Under the pieces are notes generated by a model. The model was not told the origin of the DNA. It did not search any database and worked only from the letters and a program-made list of their open reading frames with translations. A program made the translations under genes and the position numbers. A stretch of DNA of 20,326 bases from a virus, in the IMG/VR virus record IMGVR_UViG_3300046318_000005, positions 1 through 20,326 of that record; one strand, 5' to 3'. Below, piece by piece: positions 2,321-11,750 of this stretch (within the stretch, counting starts at the first letter, position 1; every line of letters begins with the position of its first letter).

Positions 2321-2341
2321 TATAATTTTATACTATCTAGG
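2321..2341. repeat. Imperfect direct repeat, copy at the 3' end of the endonuclease gene
   Basis: This 21-base stretch matches 3055-3075 at 18 of 21 positions in the same orientation without gaps. It contains the stop codon of the homing endonuclease (2337-2339). The partner copy contains the stop codon of the portal gene. The endonuclease gene therefore lies between two copies of one sequence. Confidence 0.6.
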
Positions 2342-3035
2342 CATAAATCATGCTTGTTTTATTAGGTCTATGCCCTGTTAAATAATTATTAAGGGTAGAC
2401 CTAATCATGTTGTGAGCTTTAGCTGCATCAGCTATGCATCCATAGTATATTCCGGTTTGTGTGTTTAAAATTATTTTAGCTTTATAGTTTTTTTCTCCAG
2501 AAATGCTTTTGCTTCTCTTTAATAAACACTCCTTAGATAATTTTCTTCCAGTTAAAGCTTTTGATATTTTATCTCTTCTTTCTTTAGAAAACACAGTTCC
2601 TTTATTACTTTCTGATATTTTAAGTCTTGTCTGTATTGATACAGGCCTACCTATCAATCCTTTCTTTATTTTTTGTATAGCCTCTTCAGTATGCTTAAAT
2701 CCTTTTACTGAATTAGAAATTCTAGCCTTCATTTCGTCAGATATAACTTTTCTTGAATCGTTTGAGTTTGTTAAAAGACAATTCAATCCCTTTTTACCTA
2801 TACATTCATATCTATCTTGCCAATATCTTTCCTTTTGGTTTAATTGATCTTTATCGCATTCTTCTATAACTTCAAAAACATGGTTATCCCATCCGTATTT
2901 TTTAATAGAACTATATAACCTTACTTGTAATTTACAACTACAACTTGCGTATTTTTTAATTCTATTTTCTATATTAACACTCTGTCCGACATATACCTTA
3001 CCTGAAGGAGATGTTATTTTGTATATACCTATCAT
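2337..3035 (-). CDS. GIY-YIG homing endonuclease with NUMOD repeats
   Basis: This 232-residue protein begins with a GIY-YIG nuclease domain (about 1-90): GIY at 3-5, YVG at 15-17, the conserved Arg at 25, and the catalytic Glu at about 69 in KERYW. The middle has repeated NUMOD3-type DNA-binding motifs (HTEEAIQKIKKG, SIQTRLKISESNKG, SKERRDKISKALTGRKLS). The C-terminus (about 185-232) resembles a NUMOD1 helix-turn-helix module ending in NKTSMIYA. Such enzymes cut allelic sites and spread by recombination; they are not needed for the virion. The gene is free-standing between portal and scaffold genes. Its 31- and 46-base flanks leave no room for a group I intron. It has its own candidate promoter. 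The closest relative in this window is the endonuclease at 9694-10284. Confidence 0.9.
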   Translation of the reverse strand: MIGIYKITSPSGKVYVGQSVNIENRIKKYASCSCKLQVRLYSSIKKYGWDNHVFEVIEECDKDQLNQKERYWQDRYECIGKKGLNCLLTNSNDSRKVISDEMKARISNSVKGFKHTEEAIQKIKKGLIGRPVSIQTRLKISESNKGTVFSKERRDKISKALTGRKLSKECLLKRSKSISGEKNYKAKIILNTQTGIYYGCIADAAKAHNMIRSTLNNYLTGHRPNKTSMIYA

Positions 3036-9092: not shown

Positions 9093-9356
9093 TTAATGTA
9101 CGATTTTTAGAGCGTCTCCGGTTCTATAAACCTTACCAACTGCTAACCCTGCTGCTACTGCTGCTGAATTATTAGCGTACTCTACTACTCCTGTGAATGA
9201 AGGTGTATTCATTATAAGTAAGTTCTGCTGTAAGAAGCTTATAACATCTGCGAACGTAAAGTTCTTTGTCTCTAAGCTATTCTCCGCATCTGTTCCTACT
9301 AACTTGTCGTCAACTGTTATTTCAGTATCGTCTGGATATTGGCTAATCTTTGTCAT
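9093..9356 (-). CDS. Small fibre-type protein with MTKIS N-terminal module
   Basis: This 87-residue protein starts with MTKISQYPDDTEITVDDKLVGTDA and TKNFTFADVISFL. The same module opens the much larger protein at 16829-17542 (MTKIS-Y, IT, DK, G-DA, TKNFT), so these two are N-terminal paralogues. The end (AAVAAGLAVGKVYRTGDALKIVH) is a motif I associate with small tail or appendage proteins of Bacteroidota phages, where it is often the end of a fibre. No signal peptide or membrane segment is seen. It is probably a short fibre or a virion attachment adaptor, separated by two bases from the 107-residue gene upstream. Confidence 0.65.
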   Translation of the reverse strand: MTKISQYPDDTEITVDDKLVGTDAENSLETKNFTFADVISFLQQNLLIMNTPSFTGVVEYANNSAAVAAGLAVGKVYRTGDALKIVH

Positions 9357-9358
9357 AA

Positions 9359-9682
9359 TTATTCAGCTATTACTTCTTCTACAATAGGTGTTGGTTCTGG
9401 TGTTGGTTCTGGTGGAACAGGTGGAACGTATTCTCCTGTAATAACAAGATTAAGTTGTTCAGCAACCCAATCGTAAGCGTATTCATTTGTTTGCCATCCT
9501 TGATATGCTTCGTCCGACATTGTTAAATTTCCTTGAGCAAGTTGTTGTTGAGCGTCACTCAAAATAGAATAATAAAATGTACCTGAATTGATTAAATTGT
9601 CATTAATACAATAAGAATTTAAAATACTTCCTTTGTCTTGAGTTCCATTTACCCAAATAAAAATAGGTTCAATTGTTTTCAT
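9359..9682 (-). CDS. Small phage protein with MKTIE N-terminus and Pro-rich tail
   Basis: This 107-residue protein lies between a homing endonuclease gene and the short fibre-type gene. It begins MKTIEPIFIWVNGTQDKG, followed by a beta-rich segment (GTFYYSILSDAQQQLAQGNLTM), a Trp-containing motif (YQGWQTNEYAYDWVAEQLNL) and a Pro/Glu/Thr-rich C-terminus (VPPVPPEPTPEPTPIVEE). I associate this type with small virion-associated proteins near fibre genes in Flavobacterium phages; the function is unknown. The first 15 bases of coding sequence are repeated exactly at 10326-10340, where a 19-codon fragment of the same kind of gene lies upstream of the endonuclease. The gene therefore appears either duplicated or rebuilt when the endonuclease inserted. 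Confidence 0.7.
   Translation of the reverse strand: MKTIEPIFIWVNGTQDKGSILNSYCINDNLINSGTFYYSILSDAQQQLAQGNLTMSDEAYQGWQTNEYAYDWVAEQLNLVITGEYVPPVPPEPTPEPTPIVEEVIAE
9387..9428. repeat. Short tandem repeats encoding a Pro-Glu-Thr hinge
   Basis: On the plus strand there are two perfect copies of the 12-base unit GGTGTTGGTTCT (9387-9398 and 9399-9410), followed by two near-identical 9-base units GGTGGAACA/G (9411-9428). All units are multiples of three, so copy-number changes would lengthen or shorten the Pro-rich tail of the 107-residue protein without a frameshift. Confidence 0.75.
9668..9682. repeat. Direct repeat (15 bp), copy at start of the 107-residue gene
   Basis: An exact 15-base match, in the same orientation, to 10326-10340. 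On the minus strand both copies are ATGAAAACAATTGAA, encoding MKTIE. The two copies bracket the homing endonuclease gene at 9694-10284. Confidence 0.7.
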
Positions 9683-9693
9683 AGTTGTTTTTT

Positions 9694-10284
9694 TTAAGCG
9701 TAAATATAAATAGTTTTATTTTTTCTTGTTCCAGACAAATATCTTGCCATATTTCTGTGATTTAAATTGTATAAATCAGTTAATTCTTTTAAGCAGTTGT
9801 AAAAAACTCCTGTTTGAGTATCTAATACAATTTTAGCTTTTTTTGATTTATCTCCTTTTTGAGCTTCAGACATTTTTTTTCTTGATTCAATAGATGCTTT
9901 TCTTCCGTAATTTGGATGATCCTTACCTTTTTTGTAACTAGAAGCTCTTAATATTTTAATTCTTTCAATTGTCTCTTTAGAATATTTATATCCTTTTGAA
10001 CTTACTGCGTTTTTATTGAGATTACAACATTTTTCATCATCAAAAAATAAATCTAAATAATGTTGTTCTCTAGAATCCAAATCTTCGTACGAACATTCTT
10101 CTAATATTTCAAATAACGGCATACCATGCTTATTATATACATTTTGAATAAATCCGCTTTTATTTTTATTTTTAAGCATTAAGTACTTGTGTCTATTAAA
10201 ACGATTTTGAATGTCAATAGACTGACCTATATAAAAATATCCAGATTCTTCCCATTTCAATTTGTATATACCTAACTTTTTCAT
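9694..10284 (-). CDS. GIY-YIG homing endonuclease inside the fibre block
   Basis: This 196-residue protein has a GIY-YIG nuclease domain (about 1-95): GIY at 5-7, YIG at 18-20, the conserved Arg at 28, and the catalytic Glu at about 73 (SREQHYLDLF). It is followed by a NUMOD3-like DNA-binding segment (GRKASIESRKKMSEAQKG) and a C-terminal NUMOD1-like module ending in KNKTIYIYA. It is a paralogue of the protein at 2337-3035, sharing the KAKI-L-TQTG segment and the C-terminal ending. Its ATG overlaps the stop of a 19-codon open frame upstream (ATGA), so it may be translated by coupling to that remnant. It is free-standing with no room for an intron. It is selfish and not part of the virion. Confidence 0.88.
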   Translation of the reverse strand: MKKLGIYKLKWEESGYFYIGQSIDIQNRFNRHKYLMLKNKNKSGFIQNVYNKHGMPLFEILEECSYEDLDSREQHYLDLFFDDEKCCNLNKNAVSSKGYKYSKETIERIKILRASSYKKGKDHPNYGRKASIESRKKMSEAQKGDKSKKAKIVLDTQTGVFYNCLKELTDLYNLNHRNMARYLSGTRKNKTIYIYA

Positions 10285-10340
10285 ACTGCTTCTTGTACTG
10301 TTCCGTTATCCCAAATGGATACTGCTTCAATTGTTTTCAT
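10281..10340 (-). pseudogene. 5' remnant of an MKTIE-type gene cut short at the endonuclease
   Basis: A 19-codon frame, MKTIEAVSIWDNGTVQEAV then TGA, aligns with the start of the 107-residue protein downstream (MKTIE, then IW, then NGT at the same spacing). Normal members of this type continue for about 80-110 residues, so this is a fragment. Its stop overlaps the endonuclease ATG. It is either the broken end of a gene that the endonuclease invaded or a reduced copy kept as a leader for coupled translation. Confidence 0.65.
10326..10340. repeat. Direct repeat (15 bp), copy upstream of the endonuclease
   Basis: Exact partner of 9668-9682, covering the first five codons of the truncated MKTIE frame. 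With its partner it brackets the endonuclease gene and the remnant. Confidence 0.7.
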
Positions 10341-10373
10341 GTTTATTTATTTATTTGTTGTTTATTATTTGTT

Positions 10374-11750
10374 TTAGAATAACAGGTTATTTGATATTAC
10401 TTGTATGTGTGCAGCCCAGTTTGTATTACCTGCTATATGAAGTATTCCATTAACTTGTGAAAATGATATTCCGGAGGCAGTATTACTAACTGATATTTGA
10501 GTTGCTTCAAAATTATTTCCATTATACCCACATCTAATCATCCATAACGCAGCTCCCGTGCCATTACCTGCGTCAAATTGTGTTGATATTAAAAGTAGAT
10601 AAGCACCACCGCCACTATAAGCATTTATTGGTAATCCTAATGATTGCGGGGTAGTTTGTAGTGTTATGTCTTTTCTTCTGAAATTTTGACTTTCCATTCT
10701 ACCTGCAACTTGTAATTTCGATCCGCTATCTGTTTGTGTCCCTATTAGCATATTTCCATTTGAAGCAATAGTTACCGTTTCATCGCTGCCCTGTACAAAG
10801 GCTATAGGCGCTGCTGCATTATTACTTAAAACCCTGCTATATATTTTTGTACCTGAACCTGTTGATCCGAAAATTGATCTATATCCATTACCTGTATTGT
10901 CAACGCAAATATAAGTAGACGAACCATCTTGCACATGCAACTTAAATGCCGGTGTAGCCGTTCCAATACCAACAGATCCGCCATTGAAAAAGCTATTACC
11001 AGCAGTGTCTAAAGCTACTTTAGCTGTCCCGGTATCACTTAATTGAAAATATCCCTTTTCATCATCTGGATAACTAGAACCTCTTCCAGATATTAACGCG
11101 AGTCTATTTCCTGTCGGAGTTTGAATTTCCATGCCTTGATTGCTTTGGCCTGATATGCCCTTAATAGTCAACAATCTAGGTGGACTAGACACTCCAATAC
11201 CAACAGCTCCGTTAGCATCAATCCTCATTACCTCTGTATTGCCATTAATGCCAATCCATCTATGCGTGCCTCCTGCCGAAACCCCGTAACCAATGCTTGA
11301 CGCAGAATAAAATCCAGGGCCCGTATAAGCGGCGGCTTGCACGGATTGCAATATTCTAAATACATTAGATCCACCGCTGCTTAAAGATATATTTCCCGCT
11401 ACATCTAATTTGTTTAGTGGCGATATAGTTCCTATACCAATGTCTCCGGAACTTAATATCTCCATTGCAGCAGTAGATGTACCCATTGCTCTAAGAGAAA
11501 GTCCAGACGAATTTATTACTAACTTTTTATCACCGTAAGTACTATCACTTGAAGACGCAACTAAGTATACTTGTGGAGAATCAGGTTGTAATGATATATT
11601 ACTTCCGTTAACTGCATACTTTGATCTAACACTTCCAACAACATCAAGCTTGTATTGAGAACCAGGAGCGGGTGTTAATCCCATTCCAATAAGTCCGCTT
11701 CCTTCCTTTATAACCTCTGTTAGATTCCCTAAATTTCTATTTAGTCCCAT
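10374..11750 (-). CDS. Tail fibre protein with GIGT-type repeats
   Basis: This 458-residue protein has several copies of the turn motif of trimeric phage fibres: YKLDVVGSV, IGIGTISPLNKLDVAGN, IGVSSPPRLLTIKG, IGTATPAFKLHVQDG, LIGTQTDSGSKLQVAGR. The N-terminus (MGLNRNLGNLTEVIKEGS) is shared in form with the next fibre upstream (MGLTKDLGALPRAITVSS), suggesting a common attachment module. The C-terminal 110 residues are different, beta-rich, with LLLISTQFDAGNGTGAALW and a final AAHIQVISNNLLF, and could form the distal receptor-binding or trimer-cap domain. It lacks the S74 self-cleaving domain of its neighbour. It is probably a host-recognition appendage at the tail or capsid. The start is preceded by AAATAATATG rather than a Shine-Dalgarno site. 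Confidence 0.82.
   Translation of the reverse strand: MGLNRNLGNLTEVIKEGSGLIGMGLTPAPGSQYKLDVVGSVRSKYAVNGSNISLQPDSPQVYLVASSSDSTYGDKKLVINSSGLSLRAMGTSTAAMEILSSGDIGIGTISPLNKLDVAGNISLSSGGSNVFRILQSVQAAAYTGPGFYSASSIGYGVSAGGTHRWIGINGNTEVMRIDANGAVGIGVSSPPRLLTIKGISGQSNQGMEIQTPTGNRLALISGRGSSYPDDEKGYFQLSDTGTAKVALDTAGNSFFNGGSVGIGTATPAFKLHVQDGSSTYICVDNTGNGYRSIFGSTGSGTKIYSRVLSNNAAAPIAFVQGSDETVTIASNGNMLIGTQTDSGSKLQVAGRMESQNFRRKDITLQTTPQSLGLPINAYSGGGAYLLLISTQFDAGNGTGAALWMIRCGYNGNNFEATQISVSNTASGISFSQVNGILHIAGNTNWAAHIQVISNNLLF

Follow-up and report, generated by a model that had tools for sequence, protein, structure and literature searches.

The window analysed here, the whole 20,326-nucleotide stretch of viral DNA (IMG/VR record IMGVR_UViG_3300046318_000005), carries on its minus strand, after a tail-fibre-like gene (11750-10374), a 19-codon leader ORF (MKTIEAVSIWDNGTVQEAV) with its ATG at 10340. 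The TGA stop of this leader overlaps the ATG of a GIY-YIG homing endonuclease gene (HEG) as ATGA, and after an 11-nt spacer the HEG is followed by a complete 107-codon gene starting MKTIEPIFIWVNGT. The features of the locus, named according to the assignments reached below, are as follows:

10281-10340, minus strand: leader ORF (19 codons plus TGA), the severed 5' end of the recipient's native gene; 56 nt (10285-10340) are native, and the last base of codon 19 and the stop come from the HEG start (ATGA overlap)
10284-10285, minus strand: insertion point, between nt 56 and 57 of the native gene (codon 19, phase 2)
9694-10284, minus strand: GIY-YIG/NUMOD3 homing endonuclease gene, 196 aa
9683-9693, minus strand: 11-nt spacer between the HEG stop and the restored gene start
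9629-9682, minus strand: replacement 5' end (codons 1-18, "R" type MKTIEPIFIWVNGTQDKG)
9482-9628, minus strand: further donor-derived (co-converted) part of the gene body, to about gene nt 200
9359-9481, minus strand: recipient-lineage 3' part of the target gene, whose full frame is 9682-9359

Identification of the endonuclease rests on Pfam matches to GIY-YIG (2e-07) and NUMOD3 (3.6e-09), both above curated cut-offs, on PHROG matches, and on conservation of the catalytic-domain residues in its relatives. A second GIY-YIG/NUMOD3 endonuclease gene (2337-3035, minus strand, 232 aa) lies between the portal gene and the next gene of the window, but the 31-nt gap before it shows no sign of a severed leader. 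The 107-aa target protein, which the sequence-only reading had called a virion protein, lies among tail-fibre, terminase and portal genes but has no Pfam or PHROG match, and a native version of it gave no tblastn match in INPHARED. Although its AlphaFold model is good (pLDDT 91.4), Foldseek found only uncharacterised phage proteins among the significant viral matches and nothing significant in the PDB. We noted that in loci L039/L040 (from 5355) the gene after the target contains a stretch (CIDPEVRLQGKNGYIRAGDLKIGDEV) that looks like a Hint/intein-type segment.

The first 15 bases of the leader and of the downstream gene are identical and the 16th differs. Over the first 56 bases the two agree at 38/56, a value reached by 0 of 20000 shuffles, establishing homology rather than chance similarity. 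The direct repeats noted in the sequence-only reading are two homologous gene starts and not a target-site duplication. That reading had preferred an insertion near the 5' end of the gene in which the element supplied a new 5' end, and had proposed comparison with relatives lacking the endonuclease. We made this comparison by searching IMG/VR with the gene and with native versions of it, which gave 125 distinct gene starts (loci are designated L followed by a number, the window being L001). One of these is a leader (L052). Of the 124 typed genes, 94 are native (N; W-D/N/K-NG), 16 are R (WVNGTQD, as in the window), 7 are F (PLNLG) and 7 are other. Native alleles such as L101/L019, L035/L078 and L448, the last in a Sphingobacteriales MAG contig, begin MKTIEAVSIWDNGTVQQA-TILN(A/S)YAVNV and are uninterrupted. 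The HEG-free relatives L101/L019 and L448 carry one uninterrupted gene starting MKTIEAVSIWDNGT that continues into the body, in L101 as MKTIEAVSIWDNGTVQQAT-ILNAY. The leader of the window matches the 5' end of this gene in L101 and in L448 at 53/56 bases, while codon-shuffled leaders reached at most 34/56. All sequences but L448 are metagenomic viral contigs, and L448 is itself a contig of a metagenome-assembled genome.

L101, a 23.7-kb contig with no HEG upstream of its gene, provides a near-isogenic comparison, since it matches the window from 9697 to 5368 at 97.9% identity over 4346 nt. Within the gene, nt 1-200 are only about 67% identical and nt 201-300 about 89%, and from nt 301 identity is 98-100% for more than 600 nt. 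At 90 informative sites the window resembles the donor-type allele L008 on the left (46 of 59) and L101 on the right (28 of 31), with the switch between gene nt 199 and 204 (0 of 10000 permutations). Thus the window reads as recipient leader, HEG, donor 5' tract and recipient 3' end, that is, as a homing conversion tract. The left flank is the weak point of this comparison, since the tail genes upstream of the leader differ between the two phages and only about 69 nt around the leader align. These results strongly support the insertion favoured by the sequence-only reading, with two refinements: the new 5' end is a divergent allele and not a copy, and donor DNA extends about 200 nt into the gene before recipient sequence resumes.

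Five full leaders (L001, L002, L004/L026/L050, L052 and L053) are joined to the HEG ATG after exactly nt 56, whereas L047 and L051 keep only the last bases of a leader, and some HEG loci (L049, L054, L055) have none, showing that the leader is not essential for persistence or was lost. Each full leader except that of L004, which matches its best native allele at only 46/56, matches some native allele at 53-55/56, and every leader matches a native allele better than any other leader. The HEGs have diverged much more (dS up to about 1.1), so leaders belong to the local genome and not to the travelling element. Repeated insertion, or repeated exchange of the upstream region, explains this.

We next examined the right boundary of the replacement. 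Pairs of R and N alleles whose nt 55-108 are at least 90% identical are on average only 59.5% identical over nt 1-54, compared with 88.7% for N-N pairs with the same body identity. Max-chi2 breakpoints fall at nt 57 (L051 versus L111/L112) and at nt 53 (L015 versus four R alleles), with 0 of 5000 permutations in each case. That the donor tract runs on to about nt 200 in the window itself is as expected if co-conversion length varies. However, all R alleles carry the CINDNL body type, so part of that body may also be donor-derived, and the direction of exchange in L015 and L111/L112 cannot be fixed.

The HEG (85-100% identical) sits next to 11 of 16 R alleles and 0 of 84 N alleles with enough upstream sequence (Fisher 3e-11, although related contigs are not fully independent). 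Its dN/dS among relatives is 0.07-0.28, indicating purifying selection and hence that it is maintained as a protein. Two bases, nt 32 (A; codon 11) and nt 53 (C; Ala18), are fixed in all 94 N alleles and changed in all 16 R alleles. Nt 53 lies three bases from the insertion point. We regard the two differences as candidate immunity changes, an inference that rests on sequence difference alone. Of interest, loci sharing one tail-gene 3' end (..GNYV) include native empty alleles (L190, L202), an occupied allele (L054), R alleles without the HEG (L005, L008, L009), and L007, an R allele which keeps "CGCTTAAACAAAATAACG" from the HEG 3' end without the HEG. This scar includes, in related form, the spacer sequence, and the motif was found in no other HEG-free locus among those searched for it. 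The replacement 5' end therefore outlives the HEG.

To look for other instances, we screened further GIY-YIG loci automatically for a short upstream ORF resembling the downstream gene start, which revealed one new case (L384) besides those already known. Here a 44%-identical HEG is preceded by MKTIEPVVFPLNLGTKI, an F-type start (up to 44/50 to F alleles) cut at the homologous nucleotide, with an ATGA overlap, and is followed by MKTIENVTFPLNLGVAS-LLNAYC. The breakpoint test on L384 was not significant, probably for lack of a close empty relative. A related HEG (48% over its best segment) in L059 shows the same architecture in a different, terminase-small-like gene (DUF5681-like, just below the Pfam cut-off) directly upstream of a large terminase. 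Its leader MSKEHIKEHEFKKGQSGNPKG.. is followed by ATGA, the HEG and then MAREDNLKKFTSEYQPKNNG-RPKGSKNRS, whereas the empty relative L208 reads MSKEHIKEHEFKKGQSGNPNG-RPKGSKNRS. L208 is collinear with L059 at 94% (862 nt) to the left and 92% (2210 nt) to the right, its body is almost identical in protein sequence, and the breakpoint is at nt 54 (0 of 5000 permutations). The replacement start of L059 and about 45 nt before it resemble a separate HEG-free allele group lacking KGQSGNPKG (L270, L241). Since leader/R similarity alone is weak in L059, which was recognised through its empty relative, a screen of this kind underestimates prevalence. In addition, HEGs 71% identical to that of the window stand, without a leader, upstream of another allele type (MKTIEGIQTWISGQSVLATIF) in L381 (2826-3416) and L382 (3001-3591), and that start differs from those of the HEG-free relatives L123 and L121. 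In L036 (1107-1571) an ORF that reads like an HNH-type endonuclease, judged by eye only, sits at the same place directly upstream of the same target gene. In the isolate or named phages PH15, Entf1, cr112_1 and AB1I1T, HEGs lie in or beside terminase or other genes and no 5' replacement is annotated. The related HEGs of PH15 (L364, 1671-2300) and Entf1 (L365, 1710-2312) lie inside the large terminase gene, annotated as joined exons in PH15 and as separate N- and C-terminal ORFs in Entf1.

Taken together, the best explanation, in which we have considerable confidence, is that a free-standing GIY-YIG HEG inserted inside a phage gene after nt 56 and restored that gene by bringing a divergent copy of the severed 5' end. 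In the mechanism we propose, the endonuclease is inferred to cut the native allele near codons 18-19 in a co-infecting phage, and the break is repaired from the HEG-bearing donor, copying the HEG, the spacer, the donor 5' end and sometimes part of the body, before the exchange ends in recipient sequence. The conversion tract is evident from the sequences, whereas cleavage as its cause, and copying from a co-infecting donor, are inferred in the absence of cleavage, homing or expression data. The left end keeps the recipient's own first 56 nt as the leader, which may then act as left homology arm for further homing and, as the sequence-only reading also supposed, as a translated leader that passes ribosomes to the HEG. 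The ATGA overlap in all full leaders, in L384 and in L059 fits such translational coupling, as proposed for T4 mobE (PMC2988022). The gene downstream has a complete reading frame from its own start but lacks target bases, so the occupied allele is probably immune. The HEG can later be lost while the altered 5' end stays, as in L007.

We considered whether the leader could instead be a by-product of tail-module exchange, with the HEG standing between the tail gene and the target gene and the remnants created by recombination of upstream modules carrying native gene starts. The differing tail genes upstream of the leaders, the ATGAAAA shared by the gene start and the HEG start, and the existence of leaderless HEG loci are consistent with this possibility. 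However, all five full leaders end at nt 56 and not at the shared ATGAAAA, both flanks are collinear between L059 and L208, and in the window the 3' end of the gene returns to the lineage of L101, whose 5' end is also the best match of the leader. We therefore consider this explanation unlikely. The alternative offered by the sequence-only reading, a tandem gene pair whose upstream copy decayed, with the HEG entering later, could account for two homologous gene starts in tandem, but none of the loci with this gene has two full-length copies, empty relatives have a single uninterrupted gene, and every remnant stops at the same nucleotide. Equally improbable is an intron with a HEG whose splicing would join leader and body at codon 19. 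Although related GIY-YIG endonucleases are intron-encoded in other phages, such as I-TevI in td, we found no Rfam match at E<=1 in 9300-10800, nor at the gathering threshold in the window, L059, L052 and L001. Moreover, a complete homologous 5' end lies directly downstream, so splicing is not needed, and only 11 nt separate the HEG stop from that start.

The closest known arrangement is found in mobile endonuclease ORFs of fungal mitochondria that carry a replacement C-terminus (Allomyces macrogynus atp6; Glomus sp. atp6, atp9, cox2 and nad3; PMC3630166). There too an endonuclease ORF is inserted in a coding gene together with a divergent copy of the severed part, so that the host gene becomes a working hybrid while the native severed end remains as a remnant, and close relatives have the uninterrupted gene. 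Those elements, mostly with LAGLIDADG enzymes, replace the 3' end of mitochondrial genes, whereas here the 5' end (the N-terminal 18 codons) is replaced in phages with GIY-YIG enzymes, and the remnant lies upstream where it can act as a translated leader. The free-standing seg/mob homing endonucleases of T4-like phages include in-gene insertions, such as mobE in Aeh1 nrdA and mobA in T4 gene 60, and in mobE/nrdA translation is proposed to be coupled to the upstream frame through overlapping stop and start (PMC2988022), but these insertions split the gene into two polypeptides while here the gene is restored as one. Phage HEGs have also been described at the boundaries of genetic exchange, where asymmetric homing between diverged phages is discussed (PMC10448857), although no in-gene insertion with a restored N-terminus is described in the passages of that work we consulted. 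We found no phage report of 5'-end replacement in the open-access library to which our search was confined.

It is possible, and in our view slightly more likely than not, that phages harbour a recurrent class of homing element of this type, in which a free-standing GIY-YIG HEG lands inside coding sequence near the gene start, supplies a target-altered 5' end that keeps the gene whole and immune, and turns the severed start into its own translated leader and left homology arm. Successive HEG lineages would then hit each other's escape alleles, so that HEGs drive allele turnover in ordinary phage genes, as the R and F alleles and the invasion of an F-type allele by the L384 HEG may illustrate.

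Free-standing HEGs are usually found between genes, and those inside phage genes are known to split them. The locus described here shows another outcome, insertion into coding sequence that leaves the host gene with a full reading frame without splicing. This offers HEGs a route into conserved coding sites and is a source of N-terminal allele diversity. It also supplies empty, occupied and lost states of one site at near single-nucleotide resolution, so that cleavage, immunity and loss become directly testable. As the phage, 5'-end counterpart of a fungal mitochondrial arrangement, it suggests a general solution.
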